Position numbers and translations under genes: made by a program. Below, in pieces: positions 36,471 through 43,455 of a stretch of 64,000 nt of DNA (the stretch's first letter is position 1; each line of letters starts with the position of its first letter). The stretch comes from Hyphomonadaceae bacterium (GTDB lineage: Bacteria; Pseudomonadota; Alphaproteobacteria; Caulobacterales; Aquidulcibacteraceae), in NCBI GenBank assembly GCA_019753175.1, contig JAIELK010000019.1:62001-126000 (forward strand), written 5' to 3'. Below the pieces are notes generated by a model that was not told the DNA's origin, searched no databases, and saw only the letters and a list, made by a program, of their open reading frames with translations.

Positions 36471-36940
36471 GGGGCGCTCGCCTCATTCGGCGCGCCGCTT
36501 TGTCCCTGGTTTTGCGTGAAGCTCGCCAGCAAGGTCAGGAAGTCCACGGCCGGTTGTGTGTTTGGTATCTCCGAGCCGGGAGCAAGAACATCAAATCCTG
36601 TCGGTTCGATGGCAATGAATGCCCCACCCAACAGACCGTCCGTGGCGATGCGGGCCGTAGAATCGGCCCCGATTTGCACGCCATCCGCCACTGTGAGGGT
36701 GAGCTCGGCCATGTACGTCTGCGGATCGAGCCTGATCTCGCGCACGACGCCGACCTTGACGCCAGAGACCCGGACATCCGAACCGACGGCGATGCTGCCC
36801 ACGTTCTGGAATCTGGCTTTCAACTCGTAGCCGCCGGGCCCAGTGCTGCCGGCATGGCTTGCCGCAAACGCGAAGAAAACACCTGCAACGACCACGACGA
36901 TGGCGCCGACGATGGTCTCGCCCCAGCGCTCCCAATTCAT
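36467..36940 (-). CDS. mlaD: MlaD-type MCE-domain protein
   Basis: This is an inner-membrane-anchored periplasmic MCE protein of 157 residues. Helix 1 (ETIVGAIVVVVAGVFFAFAAS) precedes one MCE domain: GGYELKARFQNVGSIAVGSDVRVSGVKVG and DSTARIATDGLLGGAFIAIEP. MlaD hexamers carry phospholipids in the Mla pathway that maintains outer-membrane asymmetry. No mlaE, mlaF or mlaC lies here; the gene sits between NDUFA12 and DUF2155 and overlaps both starts by four bases. The ATG at 36940 is chosen because upstream sequence belongs to the NDUFA12 gene in another frame. Confidence 0.9.
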   Translation of the reverse strand: MNWERWGETIVGAIVVVVAGVFFAFAASHAGSTGPGGYELKARFQNVGSIAVGSDVRVSGVKVGVVREIRLDPQTYMAELTLTVADGVQIGADSTARIATDGLLGGAFIAIEPTGFDVLAPGSEIPNTQPAVDFLTLLASFTQNQGQSGAPNEASAP

Positions 36941-37335
36941 GGCGTCTGCTCCGGTGTCCAGGCTTGGTAGTCGGAGGTGGCGGCCGCACGCTGACCGCCC
37001 CGTGCGAGCGACCCCTTCGGTCGATAAGCGCGCACGGTGCCGGTCATGTTCGGCACATGCGCCTTCTCCCAGGGTTGGCGCTTCAGCGGCTGCTCGGTCG
37101 GCGGTGCATCGACGATGTAATGCAGCCAAGCGTGCCAGTCGGGCGGCACCCGAGACGCTTCGGCCAGTCCGTTGTAAATCACGTAACGGCGCTTGCGGCC
37201 CTCGATGCTCGGGCGGCGCTCTTCGAAATAGCGGTTGCCTTGCTCATCGCGTCCGACCAGCGACGCGCGGCGGCCAATGTCGAACAGCGCCCCAGCGCTC
37301 GCCCCATTCCACCAAGTAAAAAGCCACTTGAACAT
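36937..37335 (-). CDS. NADH:ubiquinone oxidoreductase accessory subunit NDUFA12 (B17.2)
   Basis: This is a supernumerary subunit of alphaproteobacterial and mitochondrial complex I, with 132 residues. Family blocks are LVGRDEQGNRYFEE, RRYVIYNG, EASRVPPDWHAWLHYIVD, and WEKAHVPNMTGTVRAYRPKGSL. The start at 37335 (MFKWLFTWWN) gives the normal length. It is first in a three-gene overlapping operon with mlaD and DUF2155; the core nuo genes are elsewhere. Confidence 0.95.
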   Translation of the reverse strand: MFKWLFTWWNGASAGALFDIGRRASLVGRDEQGNRYFEERRPSIEGRKRRYVIYNGLAEASRVPPDWHAWLHYIVDAPPTEQPLKRQPWEKAHVPNMTGTVRAYRPKGSLARGGQRAAATSDYQAWTPEQTP

Positions 37336-37517
37336 CGTGAGCCTGATTCCGCGACCGCCAATCACCCGCCTCGGCGGCGCGAATATGGCGAACGAGCCGT
37401 GGCCCGTCTAGTGCAGCTGCGAAACAATATCTTGGGATAAATAGTGCATCCGCACCACAAGATGTTGATGCGTGCGCGAAGCATCCCTACTCTGTGGCGG
37501 TTCCAGTGGAGGCCCGC

Positions 37518-40118
37518 ATGGCCGGGGATGAAGCCAACGACATCGATAACGCGGACAGCGTGGCGCTAGACGCGCCCGAAGCCTGGTCGCCGGCGATGGC
37601 CCAGGCCGCAGCCGACGCGGGCCTCGTGCTGGAAACGGCGACTGGGCCGAGCATCCGAGCAGCGATCGTCCGGCTCGCGGTGAAGCTCGCGGAGTGTGCT
37701 GACGACCCCGGCCTGGCGGGCACCCTCGGGGAGCATTTGGCGGCCGGCCGGATTGGCTTTGACCCACCGCTGATTAGCGCGACCATGCACGGGGGAGCGT
37801 CAGCTGCGTCGGCCGCCCTCATGGCGTGGCCCGACACCCGCCCGCTTGAAATGGCGGCCTTGGCTGAAGCGCAAGCGCACCTTGCCTCCGGTGTGCGGCT
37901 TGGCATTGCGGGCACGCCATCTTCCGCTGCGCTCGACGCGCTCGACGCCGCCGCGCGCCTGCTGGATCCTGACGGACGCGCTGGCGCCGCCGTCCTGGTG
38001 CGCTCACCGGACGACACCTTGGCGGCGGATGAGGTCGCACGCACGCGCGCCACTGTCGCGCTCACCGCAGGAGCGCGCACATTGGATGCAGCGCTTGCCG
38101 AACTCGCCATCGAAGCGGTGCGCAGCGGCCTGAACCCGGATAATGGCGGCGTGCGCCGCAAGGCCGCCATCGCGCGTCTGGCCGGCGCGCCTGACGCCGA
38201 CATTGTCGCCGCGCTCTCGGGGAGCGTGTCACGCTCCGCATACAATGCTGCTCTCGATGCGGGCGCAGCCGCCCATCGCACCCGCATTTGTATCGCCACC
38301 GTGCAACCAAGCGCGCACGCGCGCTCGGCGCCGTTGCACGCCGCGATCGATCCCACCGGCGCTGCCGCGGGCGATGCGCCCTGTAGCGTGATCGCTGCGT
38401 CGATAGCGCTGCCGCGCTTTCACGCCTCAGTGTTCGACAGCGAGGCGTTGAGCGAGACGGTGCGCTTGCTCGCTCGCACACTGGATGCCGCGCCCGTCAG
38501 CGGTCCTCGCGCGATCGTCATTCGTCTTGAGGGACTTGGCGCGCTGCTCATGCGCACGGGTCTAGCTTACGACAGCGACGCCGCGCGCAGGCACGCCGCT
38601 TCGATCGCGGCCACCGCGCAAACGGCGCTGCGCAACGCCAAAACACGGGCTAAGGCGACGATCGTGTTCGCCAGCGACGTCGCCAGCGCGCGTCGCCTAG
38701 GGCTGTCGGCGACAAGTCTTGCGCCGCTGCCAAGCGCGGTCGCTTTCGGCGAGCGCTCAGGGGGAGGCTTTGGCCACCTGCTTAGCGCTGATGCGCGCTG
38801 CGGTCTTGCCGCTCTGGGGTACAGCGATGACGCCATTGCCGCGATCGCCAAGCATGTCGAAGGGCGCCGTACGCTCAAGGGCGCGCCGGGTGTAAACCTC
38901 GAACGCTTGGAAAAACTCGGCCTTACCGAGCCCGCGCTCGAAGCCATCGAGGAAGCCGCGGCCGACGCCTTTAACTTGCGCGCGGCGGTGCATCCGCTGG
39001 TGATTGGGCGCGAGCTTTGCGAAGATGTCTTGAAACTGCCCTCCGATGTCGCGACCGGCAAACGAGGCGACCTCTTGATGACGCTAGGCTTCAGCGCCGA
39101 CGATGTCGCGGCTGCGGAAGCCTATTGTATGGGCGCAGCCGACCTGAACGGCGCCTCAGCGCTGAAACCCGAACACGCTGCGGTGTTCGCGAACGCCGAC
39201 GACATCGCGCCTGACGCCCTTATCGCTATGGCGGCCGCGCTCAAACCTCACGCGCGCACGACGCTGCGCCTGACGCTTGGCGTCGAGGCCAGCAAGCGCC
39301 GCGACGCTCTGCTCGTCGCAGCGCGCGATGCAGGGGCGGCGTTGATCCAGATCGAGGCTACCGCGCCGCCGATCTCGCTCTCGCTCGCGTCGCTGGACGA
39401 AGAACCGCCGGCCCCTGTGTCGCCGACTGCCCCTGCGCTGATAGCGGACGCGCCCAGCCCCCCGCAGCGCCGCCGCCTGCCCGATCGCCGCAAGGGCTAC
39501 ATCCAGAAGTCGACGGTTGGCGGCCACAAAGTGTATCTGCACACCGGCGAATATGACGACGGCGCGCTCGGCGAGATCTTCATCGACCTGCACAAGGAAG
39601 GCGCGGCCTTCCGCTCGCTGATGAACAATTTCGCGATTTCGATCTCTATTGGCCTGCAATATGGGGTGCCGCTCGAAGATTACTGCGACGCGTTCCTGTT
39701 CACGCGGTTTGAACCGGCCGGCGAAGTAAAGGGCAACGAAACCATTCGCCACGCCACCTCGATCCTGGACTACATCTTCCGCGAATTGGCGGTGAGCTAT
39801 CTCGGTCGCGCCGATCTCGCGCAGATGGATCCCTTCGACGCGCGCGGCGATGGATTGTCGAAGCGCGCCATCGACGCCGAGAGCGCCATGCGACTTATTT
39901 CGCGTGGCTTCTCACGCGGCGCTGCGCCCGACAACTTGGTTGTGCTCCGTCCCAAGACGGTCGCAGAGAGCATACAGGAACGGCGCGAGGTGAAAACGCC
40001 ACGCGCGACGACCTCCGTTTATCGCAACGAACCCTGCAGCGCATGCGGTCATTTCACTGTGCAACAGGACGGCGCCTGCGCTGCCTGCGGCGCGAAGGGA
40101 CAAGCCAAGGGCGGCTGA
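37518..40118 (+). CDS. Degenerate class II (NrdJ-like) ribonucleotide reductase paralogue with intact C-terminal module
   Basis: This 866-residue protein keeps the C-terminal NrdJ module almost unchanged (about 650-800: [67 protein letters not shown]). Residues about 288-620 follow the second half of the RNR barrel but with the catalytic sequence eroded: [13 protein letters not shown] stands where NrdJ has [26 protein letters not shown] where it has CGAMTLEGAPHLK, and the NPCSE and KTINMP motifs are missing. The first 280 residues are Ala-rich and unaligned. The tail has CSACG and CAACG zinc-type pairs but lacks the terminal redox Cys pair. A GGAGG site supports the ATG at 37518. It is probably not a reductase; a regulatory or DNA-metabolism role is inference. 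Confidence 0.8.
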
Positions 40119-40276: not shown

Positions 40277-41500
40277 CTAACCTCTCGTATTCGGCAATCG
40301 TGAGCCGCGCTGACGCGCTGGCTCCGCGTTGTTGTCGGGGTGCTGCACAAACTTTACCACCTGAAGAATATTCGATTCCAGCCTGCAGCCTGGCGTCGAA
40401 CCACTCAGCTGTTCAACCCGCCACGTCCCGATGACGCGCTCGATCGCCCTGCTGAACGCATGCGAGCCTGCCTGCGCGGCAACCTCGTGATGAGCGATCT
40501 GGCCATCTGCGCCGATTCGAAAGAACAGAACCACCGTCGCGACTTCGGTAGATCGCGGGTACTCAGGCATCCGGCCCGGTGCAACGCGAATTAGACATCG
40601 CGGCCGGGTCAGATCGAGAGGCCGCCCGAGTTCGCGAAGCCCGTCCGCATCACCCTGCGCCTCTGCAGACGAAGGCGGCACTTCCAGTCCGTCCGCCGAT
40701 AGCTTCGATTCTAGAGCATGCCGCCAGGCGAGCGCTTCAGCATACGTGCGCTGTGCGAGTGTCAGCTGCAAAGTCGGCGATTCAATCTGCGACATGGGGC
40801 GAAGTGTGCGCTCGGCCTGGCTCAATAACGCATGCGCCGCATGCGCTTCGCCTTCATCGATCCGACTGCCATCCGCCAGTTCCGCCAGGATGATCGACAC
40901 GGCCTCCAATGTTCGCGCCCGTGCAAGCCCGTACTCTTCACCAAGTTCTGAACCAGCGGGGTTTGCGCCGGCAAGCGCCCAAGCACGACGCGATGTCGCA
41001 AACTCCCGCCTGGACAGCGACCAGTTCCCAAGTTGAATCGCCGCCGCATAAAGATCGTGCTCTGGGAACGCTTGCGTCTCGCTGAAGAGCAATTCCTCCA
41101 TACGTCTCGCCGCCGCTTCACCAGCAGGCGAGTCCGAAGCCGCCCCGAGCGTGGCGCGCATGAGGATAAGTTCAGTGTAGGCGGCATCCACGCTTTGGGC
41201 GCCGGCGCGTGCAAGATCCCAGGCGCGCTGCGCCGCTGGCTGAGCCAAGCTGGGGCGTCCCGCTTGGAGCTCGGCTGAGGCGAGATTGAGCGCAAGAACC
41301 GCTGTACGCCCTCCGCCGCCGTCCCGAGTCTCTGACGCCGACAACGCAGCACGCGCTTCAACAACCGCAGTGTCGATATCTCCGCGCTCCAGCGCCGCCA
41401 CATAGGCGCGATAGTGCTGCATCACAGTATTAGTTTGAGCGGGGGCGTCCGCTACCCAACAAACGGCGAACAGAACCACAACGGCGAATAACCAACGCAT
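40277..41500 (-). CDS. Exported helical-repeat protein with TonB-C-like C-terminal domain
   Basis: I do not recognise a named family. The 407-residue product has a signal peptide ending DAPAQT and an alpha-helical repeat region (about 25-270) that looks TPR-like, for example HYRAYVAALERGDIDTAVVEARAAL. The last third, with PEYPRSTEVATVVLFFRIGADGQIAHHEV, FSRAIERVIGTWRV and a Cys pair, resembles the TonB/energy-transducer C-terminal fold seen in stand-alone periplasmic proteins. The start at 41500 has a GGAG six bases upstream. It could scaffold or sense envelope components. No linked operon partner is evident; it lies between the RNR-like gene (convergent) and aspS. Confidence 0.65.
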   Translation of the reverse strand: MRWLFAVVVLFAVCWVADAPAQTNTVMQHYRAYVAALERGDIDTAVVEARAALSASETRDGGGGRTAVLALNLASAELQAGRPSLAQPAAQRAWDLARAGAQSVDAAYTELILMRATLGAASDSPAGEAAARRMEELLFSETQAFPEHDLYAAAIQLGNWSLSRREFATSRRAWALAGANPAGSELGEEYGLARARTLEAVSIILAELADGSRIDEGEAHAAHALLSQAERTLRPMSQIESPTLQLTLAQRTYAEALAWRHALESKLSADGLEVPPSSAEAQGDADGLRELGRPLDLTRPRCLIRVAPGRMPEYPRSTEVATVVLFFRIGADGQIAHHEVAAQAGSHAFSRAIERVIGTWRVEQLSGSTPGCRLESNILQVVKFVQHPDNNAEPARQRGSRLPNTRG

Positions 41501-41581
41501 GGACGGCTCCACCCAAGTGCGGCTTTATGTACCGCACAAGCATGAACGCCGCAACCAAGGGTATGTACGCCGGTTCTCTCC

Positions 41582-43372
41582 CTAATCCAGCACGCGAATA
41601 TGCAGCTCCTTCAGCTGCTTCGCCGTCACTTCGCCCGGCGCGTTCATCATCAGGTCTTGCGCTTGCTGATTGAACGGGAACACGATCACTTCGCGGATGT
41701 TGTCGACGCCGGCGAGCAGCATGACGATGCGGTCGACCCCGGGCGCGGAGCCTCCGTGCGGGGGCGCGCCGAAGCGGAAAGCGTTGAGCATGCCGCCGAA
41801 CTTTTCCTCCACCACCTCGCGGCCATAACCGGCGATCTCGAACGCCTTGATCATGATCTCGGGCTTGTGGTTGCGGATCGCGCCGGAGGACAGCTCCACG
41901 CCGTTGCAGACAATGTCGTACTGGAAGGCGGTGATCTTCTCGATGGTCGCGCGGTCGCCCGCATCGAGCTTCAGAAACGCCTCGTGATCGTAGTTCGGCA
42001 TCGAGAACGGGTTGTGCGAGAAGTCGATCTTCTTTTCTTCCTCACTCCATTCGTACATCGGGAAATCGACGATCCAGCAGAACGCGAACTGGTCCTTGTC
42101 GGCGAGGTTCAGCTCATCGGCGACCTTGTTGCGCGCGAGGCCGGCGAATTTGTAGAACACGCTAGGATCGCCGGCGACGAAAAACGCGGCGTCGCCGACC
42201 TTCAAGCCAAGCTGATCGCGCAGCGCGTTCGCTTTTTCCGCGCCGATATTCTTGGCGATGGGCCCGGCGCCGCCTTCTTCGCCCTCGCGCCAGAAAATGT
42301 AGCCGAGCCCCGGTTGGCCTTCGCTTTGCGCCCATGAGTTCATCTTATCGCAAAACGCGCGCGAGCCGCCGTTCGGCGCCGGCACGGCCCACACCGCCGC
42401 GCCCGGCTTTTCCAGAATGCGCGCGAACAACCCAAAGCCGCCGCCGCGGAAATGGTCGCTGACATCTTGCAACACCAACGGGTTGCGCAGATCGGGTTTA
42501 TCGGAGCCGTACTTGGCGATGCTCTCAGCGTACGGAATGCGCGGAAACGAACCCGCCTTGGTGACGCGCTTGCCCGCGCCGAATTCCTCGAACACGCCGG
42601 CGAGCACGGGCTCAATCGCGTTAAACACGTCTTCCTGGGTGACGAAGCTCATCTCGAAATCAAGCTGATAAAACTCGCCGGGGCTGCGATCAGCGCGGGC
42701 GTCCTCGTCGCGGAAGCAGGGCGCGATCTGAAAATATTTGTCGAAGCCCGCCACCATCAAGAGCTGTTTGAATTGCTGCGGGGCCTGCGGCAGCGCGTAG
42801 AATTTCCCCGGGTGCAGCCGCGACGGCACCAGAAAATCGCGCGCACCTTCGGGGCTCGACGCAGTCAGGATCGGGGTTTGAAATTCTGTGAAGCCCTGCG
42901 CGATCATGCGTCGGCGCAAACTCGCGATCACTTGGCTGCGCAAGAGAATGCTCTTGTGCAGCTTCTCGCGGCGCAAATCCAGAAACCGATATTTGAGCCG
43001 AATGTCCTCGGGATAGTCCGGCTCGCCGAACACCGGCAGCGGCAATTCCTCGGCTGCGCCCAGCACTTCCAGCGCATTCGCCTGCACTTCGATGCCGCCG
43101 GTGGGCAAGTTTGGGTTCACCGTTTCCGTGGTGCGCTCGACCACTTTGCCGTCAATGCGGATCACACTCTCGGCGCGCAGACGCTCCGCCGCCGCGAACG
43201 CTGCGCTCGACGGCGCAATAACGATTTGCGTCAGCCCAAAATTGTCGCGCAGGTCGATGAAGAGCAGCCCGCCATGGTCGCGCTTGCGATGCACCCAGCC
43301 AGACAAACGCACCGACGCGCCGGCATCGGCGGGGCGAAGCTGCCCACAAGTGTGGGTGCGGTAGGCGTGCAT
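41582..43372 (-). CDS. aspS: Aspartate--tRNA ligase
   Basis: This is a class II synthetase of 596 residues, bacterial type. The N-terminal OB domain shows [23 protein letters not shown], the catalytic core shows [40 protein letters not shown] and [25 protein letters not shown], and motif 3 is [22 protein letters not shown]. The GAD insertion domain is present in the middle. The start is ATG 43372 after TGGAGCTC. Such bacterial-type enzymes may be non-discriminating and also charge tRNA-Asn; the sequence alone does not settle this. Confidence 0.96.
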
Positions 43373-43455
43373 TTTGAGCTCCAGACTGAAGCGCGGGGTA
43401 GCGCATGGGCGCGCCCTGCTTGTCAAGGCAGGGCGCCGCATAGCATCGTTCCGCC

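Follow-up and report, generated by a model that had tools for sequence, protein, structure and literature searches.

A degenerate class II ribonucleotide reductase gene with a conserved TSCPD module in Alphaproteobacteria

Background

The closest described relatives of the gene reported here are class II ribonucleotide reductases (RNRs). According to the available text on the NrdJ of Stackebrandtia nassauensis, dATP or dGTP makes this enzyme assemble into oligomers in a CRD-dependent manner, and the C-terminal cysteines of the same domain serve electron transfer (PMC5704485). In split class II RNRs, the NrdJb chain carries an IscU-like and zinc-finger module apart from the working barrel, and the IscU-like fold of this TSCPD module is reported there from predictions (PMC9669993, accessible part). 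In the accessible texts on NrdR, this protein is described to bind best to two boxes with spacers of ~14-17 bp (PMC12051234), and its binding to depend on a conserved C/G pair in each box (PMC9110341). For Caulobacter crescentus, the available portions of two papers call CCNA_01966 NrdJ or vitamin B12-dependent RNR (PMC6538847, PMC5869019), and one of them lists dNTP production among the uses of B12, with NrdJ named (PMC6538847). The same transcript is found among the RNAs co-purifying with the stress sRNA GsrN, with 11.3 in its row (PMC5869019, accessible part). In searches of the open-licence literature, supplements excluded, no description of a class II RNR pseudoenzyme or of an orphan TSCPD module was found in the accessible texts.

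The gene described here shares with alphaproteobacterial NrdJ (family NF005736) its locus, the TSCPD domain, a helical insertion and the RNR layout, but it lacks the radical cysteine, PTGT, KTxNxP and the terminal cysteine pair, and falls far under the family cut-off. Its tail has the same domains as NrdJb of the Pseudomonas aeruginosa type. Unlike NrdJb, however, it has no terminal redox pair and keeps four of six tail cysteines, its module remains attached to a dead barrel, and no NrdJa partner was found in 9 of 13 genomes checked. The Stackebrandtia domain corresponds to the TSCPD domain studied here by published description, not by sequence comparison, and the latter differs from it in having neither a working barrel beside it nor the terminal cysteines.

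Results

Within the window, i.e. the whole stretch of 64,000 nucleotides that was analysed, the gene is a single ORF of 874 amino acids running from GTG 37494 to 40118 on the forward strand, and residue numbers are counted from this GTG. The ATG at 37518 (Met-9) is a likelier start than GTG 37494, because Met-9 hardly varies across an alignment of 44 rows; for all rows but this one, the start was assigned by a first-ATG rule, which favours this result. The degenerate class II RNR, called pseudo-NrdJ below, is hence placed at 37518..40118 (+) on the basis of ORF, domain and family scores and Met-9, with GTG 37494 as the alternative start. The divergent genes upstream are DUF2155, MlaD and NDUFA12 (36937..37365, -), all confirmed by Pfam, and aspS, encoding aspartyl-tRNA synthetase, lies downstream (41582..43441, -). 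A 411-aa ORF between pseudo-nrdJ and aspS (40277-41512, -) has a sub-threshold TPR match only.

The TSCPD domain (PF12637) was recognised at residues 672-766 with 37 bits (cut-off 22.8), and the RNR barrel at residues 302-380 by a weak match that passes its cut-off (27.1 bits vs 23.9), while the class II RNR equivalog NF005736 gave 354.4 bits and fails at a cut-off of 1737. The first-pass annotation had taken the gene for a class II RNR derivative without catalytic motifs, and alignment with L063, an intact NrdJ of 1238 aa from the order, bears this out: the NPCSE-bearing block with the radical cysteine is deleted, and neither PTGT nor KTxNxP is left. The final redox cysteine pair is likewise absent, as had been claimed, with the correction that the zinc cysteines C848, C851, C862 and C865 are kept in a zinc-ribbon-like CxxC...CxxC (residues 847-868; 40032..40097, +; alignment and motif count). 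The near-identity to a working NrdJ that had been ascribed to the last 200-odd residues holds for a core of ~125 residues (TSCPD core, residues 654-778; 39453..39827, +; delimited by Pfam, alignment, selection and identity), which is ~80% identical to intact NrdJ; it does not extend to the C-terminal 225 residues as a whole, which are 50% identical to L063. Between core and zinc ribbon, a conserved SxGFxR...NLxxL motif (residues 801-818; 39894..39947, +; alignment) is kept in part in a stand-alone protein of SAR11 that is described below.

The same pattern is seen among relatives. Over 95 rows, PC[SG]E, PTGT and the terminal [ST][ST]GC are each present in 27/27 intact and 0/68 degenerate rows, TGE[YF] of TSCPD is present in 27/27 and 67/68, and the zinc CxxC...CxxC in 27/27 and 58/68, respectively. 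Six of the degenerate rows are incomplete, owing to a contig end (L108), the start rule (L092) or locus ends (L126, L128, L129 and L133). The full frames of the latter four (L243, L241, L242 and L244) and of L092 lack the barrel motifs too, which leaves L108 as the sole incomplete row without a full-frame check. The barrel is eroded, and its length varies between families of degenerate genes. Judged from these sequences, the redox tail appears to follow catalysis and to be lost with it, and the TSCPD module does not.

The AlphaFold2 model of the protein has a mean pLDDT of 81.7, with values >90 across most of residues 21-620 and ten-residue means of 54-79 for residues 671-780. The first 280 residues had been described as unaligned; they do align poorly by sequence but are not disordered, with block means of 74-98 for residues 21-280. 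In Foldseek, the top three matches are Rhodobacter class II RNR (best E = 1e-15, 846 columns), and the remaining 47 of the 50 matches listed are RNR large chains. The R. sphaeroides structures 7b9p/7b9q are the top PDB match both by fold and, through the helical insertion, by sequence (residues 402-569; 38697..39200, +; phmmer against their residues 681-848, 62.8 bits). They differ from the protein, however, in that identity is ~15%, TM just 0.44-0.46 and rmsd 8-10 A over the whole model, and in that the catalytic residues are missing from the latter. The model thus has the RNR barrel layout, though its TM to the best match is only 0.46, and Pfam, alignment, AlphaFold2 and Foldseek together delimit a barrel-like region without catalytic loops at residues 22-625 (37557..39368, +). 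Because of the high pLDDT and the RNR matches, the model indicates, for this family, a folded pseudoenzyme with RNR layout rather than debris.

NDUFA12 was found at 55 of 77 loci scanned, several of the misses having short flanks; a smaller separate scan of the same neighbourhood covered 20 loci. Among the 38 degenerate loci scanned in the order it is present at 37, and the one miss (L108) lies at a contig end. Next to intact genes it was found in 6/7 cases in family f5, 3/8 in f4 and 5/12 in other orders, and aspS was found at two further intact f4 loci without NDUFA12. It is also present at 3/3 SAR11 loci scanned and at the locus of one genome outside the order (G262). The gene is therefore, by its sequence context, an in-situ orthologue at the nrdJ locus, since it adjoins NDUFA12 where relatives hold intact nrdJ, and the term 'paralogue' used at first has to be given up.

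Selection was examined in 26 of the 27 f1 sequences (several genera, 325 pairs). Mean identity and pN/pS are 0.89 and 0.151 in the TSCPD region, 0.50 and 0.596 in residues 10-300, and 0.57 and 0.518 in the helical insertion. The closest pairs weigh more, because most pairs are almost saturated at synonymous sites. In 13 of the 14 closest pairs omega is lower in TSCPD (0.045-0.26) than in residues 10-300 (0.13-0.80), the exception being G024/G007 (0.23 vs 0.14), and since omega is <1 in residues 10-300 of the closest pairs, the N-terminal part is also under selection. Purifying selection is hence present when the two parts are taken separately, and it acts hardest on the TSCPD core. Within the order, degenerate copies (57 rows) share a mean TSCPD identity of 0.812 with one another and intact copies (15 rows) one of 0.803, against 0.760 between the two sets. 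Moreover, the core is more conserved than aspS, relative to the window, in 5/5 groups that allowed the two to be measured (for instance, 0.833 vs 0.648 in f2 and 0.68 vs 0.576 in SAR11), and in two SAR11 genera with genomes of 1.2-1.3 Mb, 100/115 core residues are identical as against 366/480 for aspS. Equal conservation of TSCPD in degenerate and intact copies, above that of aspS, argues that the gene is not decaying. The loss of catalytic residues combined with purifying selection is what we took to mark a pseudoenzyme, and at the level of sequence both appear here.

Degenerate copies are widespread. At a threshold of 1e-30, NF005736 has matches in 239 of the 249 genomes of the order; 50 of the 239 reach the cut-off and 58 have E = 0 (43/43 in f5 and 15 in f4). 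The weak matches put degenerate copies in up to 181/249 genomes (f1, f2, f3 and part of f4); all sequences read among these are degenerate, a few of the 181 may be other RNRs, and one (G026) has no TSCPD match. In a class-wide sample, 168/241 genomes match NF005736 and 144 pass its cut-off. Outside the order, TSCPD without barrel motifs was found in 10 of 17 weak- or partial-match genomes checked (G262, G273, G284, G327, G328, G371, G408, G419, G473 and G483). One of them, G284 (L241), has a full-length NrdJ layout in which NPCSE, PTGT and the zinc tail are lost and TSCPD is intact, and judged by this sequence it looks like an intermediate resembling an early stage of decay. The converse was seen in the f4 genome G209 (L247), where an intact class II barrel with an STGCS redox tail has its TSCPD deleted, and no TSCPD was found elsewhere in that genome.

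In three further genomes (G327, G408 and G473), a stand-alone TSCPD protein of ~275 aa lies between NDUFA12 and aspS. A scan of named genomes with one such protein confirmed 574 relatives, and the best 80 of these are all Pelagibacterales (SAR11) records, including Candidatus Pelagibacter ubique, with 81-99% identity, a range set by taking the best. These SAR11 proteins (L131, L161-L240) have a conserved N-terminal segment of ~55 aa, for which Pfam gave no match in the one protein scanned. As a fusion clue the segment was rejected, being matched in 1/115 alphaproteobacterial genomes, itself SAR11. In a draw of 299 genomes across the phylum, the share of other classes in which is not given, the module was present in 95, all of one class. 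The best TSCPD tree has at least seven changes between intact and degenerate (bootstrap 6-8). The number of independent losses is nevertheless uncertain, because strongly supported branches force just two such changes. The tree places SAR11 inside the order, which is probably long-branch attraction. By their sequences, the barrel has been lost in several lineages and, conversely, the module from an intact enzyme in one genome.

Promoters were scored against a 16-letter consensus that we take to be the NrdR box, a pair being accepted at a score of at least 20 of 32 with the published spacing and the C/G pair required. Such predicted pairs occur in 21/26 degenerate f1 promoters, including that of the window, in which box 1 (AAACAATATCTTGGGA; 37422..37437, +) and box 2 (CCACAAGATGTTGATG; 37455..37470, +) score 22 of 32 with a 17-bp spacer, inside the published range. 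Among the 25 other f1 promoters, 20 have the paired boxes, at a distance of 33 bp in 17, 32 in two and 31 in one. Dinucleotide shuffles gave 0.0 and random real windows 0/862, and three alternative spacing ranges gave 1, 2 and 2 of 26 f1 promoters. The nrdA promoter of the same genome carries a pair with spacing and score equal to those at pseudo-nrdJ; its nrdB scores 19, and none was found at the fetched locus of its second class II enzyme, NrdJ/Z (see below). The nrdA/nrdB loci of relatives score 20-25 in 7/8 cases and show no pair in one, the position of the boxes relative to the start being unchecked in L250, L255 and L261. In the other families, pairs were found in 1/12 f3, 0/8 f2, 0/10 degenerate f4 and 0/8 intact f4 genes, in 2/7 intact f5 genes, in 6/12 intact nrdJ genes of other orders, and in 0/80 SAR11 genes, i.e. 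at background level. Without the C/G rule and at a threshold of 21, the counts are 16/27 in f1, 5/12 in f3 and 2/8 in f2. The predicted boxes sit in a region shared with the divergent NDUFA12. An ATP-cone in an NrdR-sized frame (151-240 aa) was present in 33/35 genomes checked. Co-regulation of pseudo-nrdJ with nrdA by NrdR is therefore a prediction from these sites. LexA boxes were also tried and rejected, showing no excess over shuffles. CtrA-like TTAAN7TTAA sites with two mismatches occur in 34/56 degenerate f1-f4 promoters vs 15.4 in mononucleotide shuffles.

Full-length RNRs were expected elsewhere in the genome and were found there: an intact 755-aa NrdJ/Z with its own TSCPD (569.7 bits, cut-off 399.95; contig C15, L049 2571-4838, -) and a 624-aa class I NrdA (1027.5 bits, cut-off 620; L050 2356-4230, +), as well as NrdB. 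Besides NrdA and NrdJ/Z, the genome has no separate NrdJa-type chain, and its NrdA gave no ATP-cone match. Across the class sample, NrdB is present in 13/13 degenerate genomes vs 56/147 with an E = 0 NrdJ match (Fisher p = 8.8e-6, kinship ignored) and in 55/81 others; that is, within these 241 genomes barrels were lost only where a class I RNR is present. Within the order, NrdB occurs in 245/249 genomes, and since these include the intact f5, its presence alone cannot explain the loss there. A second intact class II enzyme is no general explanation either, because none was found in 9 of 13 genomes checked, where the barrel matches beyond the degenerate gene are a ~640-aa NrdA alone. Some NrdB-bearing genomes have no module match at all (in f14, for example, none in the rows listed, with NrdB in G265, G365 and G435), so the job of the module seems dispensable in some lineages. 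The idea that the module stands in, in trans, for the ATP-cone of NrdA found no support in its distribution, because in f4 g11 and f14 neither the module nor a cone-bearing NrdA was found.

Discussion

Three findings had been named beforehand as speaking against the first-pass annotation: an intact active site, no other RNR in the genome, and no selection. Instead, the structural model has the RNR layout only, without the catalytic motifs; the genome encodes complete RNRs; and purifying selection was detected. The original observation is thus confirmed and its interpretation supported, and we consider it highly probable that the gene is a functional, non-catalytic RNR derivative. Of the functions then guessed at (dNTP-pool sensor, RNR inhibitor or partner in DNA repair), the link to RNR control gains support from the predicted NrdR boxes, and none is proven. 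Recurrent loss of the barrel with the tail kept in many relatives suggests a second job for the tail.

The present pseudo-nrdJ would be the ancestral class II RNR gene of the lineage. The supply of dNTPs may have been taken over by class I NrdAB (here together with a second class II enzyme), and the barrel would have shed the radical-Cys loop, the substrate motifs and the redox tail to become a folded pseudoenzyme, whereas the TSCPD module, reported as IscU-like, would have been retained for a second, non-catalytic job. By analogy with Stackebrandtia NrdJ, the module may be a dNTP-linked regulatory scaffold that assembles on purine deoxynucleotides, because, of the two described roles of the domain, just purine-dNTP oligomerisation could survive here. 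Such a scaffold might act in trans on whichever RNR remains, with the cone-less NrdAB as the likeliest candidate, a partner that we name only tentatively. We give a probability of roughly 0.45 to the reading that the gene encodes a pseudoenzyme of RNR origin, retained because TSCPD has a non-catalytic, dNTP-linked job in trans on the remaining RNR.

A different job for the module, unrelated to RNR or dNTPs, is a possibility to be taken seriously if somewhat doubtful: TSCPD may be, for instance, a nucleic-acid-binding domain or an IscU/SufE-like sulfur/metal scaffold that joined NrdJ long ago and outlives it. SAR11 holds the module alone, with a new N-terminus and without an NrdR box pair, an IscU-like fold is reported (PMC9669993, accessible part), and SufE/IscU-type chains rank first in Foldseek for the SAR11 protein. 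These matches, however, all have E >0.5 and come from a low-confidence model (pLDDT 52.3) that is not interpretable outside the core, and the box pairs of f1 would tie the gene to the RNR regulon. Electron delivery to another RNR of the cell, by redox chemistry or in the manner of NrdJb, is improbable. The four zinc-type cysteines and the domains shared with NrdJb (PMC9669993, accessible part) would suit such a partner, but the terminal redox pair is missing from all 68 degenerate rows and the zinc motif from ten of them, both intact large subunits of the genome own C-terminal cysteines, and most genomes checked (9/13) have no NrdJa-type chain to serve.

Random decay with the 3' end kept by chance, for which the eroded barrel of differing length and single in-match stops listed in two degenerate genomes (G114 and G252) might be cited, is very improbable, as the rest of the listed matches are long open frames, pN/pS is low in TSCPD (0.15) and <1 elsewhere too, and TSCPD is conserved beyond aspS and kept even in the 1.2-1.3-Mb genomes of SAR11. 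Least probable, and close to negligible, is continued class II RNR activity from an active site that has diverged. The best Foldseek match would allow it, but the radical-Cys loop is deleted, PTGT, KTxNxP and the redox tail are gone, and the family score reaches 354.4 of 1737 bits. We favour the dNTP-linked pseudoenzyme acting in trans.

Conclusions

These genomes represent a natural separation experiment that has been run both ways: several lineages lost the barrel and retained the module, and one genome did the opposite. At about even odds, alphaproteobacterial NrdJ is a two-job protein, in which an old dNTP-linked job of TSCPD, independent of RNR class, outlives discarded barrels, with SAR11 at the end of the path, where a dNTP-control protein would stand alone at the former nrdJ locus. 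The second function of the domain could be tested directly in Caulobacter, and SAR11 gives a target too. The control genome of Caulobacter vibrioides matches NF005736 at 1e-30 and stays under its cut-off. Family f3 we infer to be the Caulobacteraceae, and from evidence other than its own sequence we infer that CCNA_01966 is very probably a pseudo-NrdJ. If this is true, the B12-dependent dNTP synthesis ascribed to the 'NrdJ' of Caulobacter would be non-existent, and annotations as 'vitamin B12-dependent RNR' in the order would overstate the use of B12.
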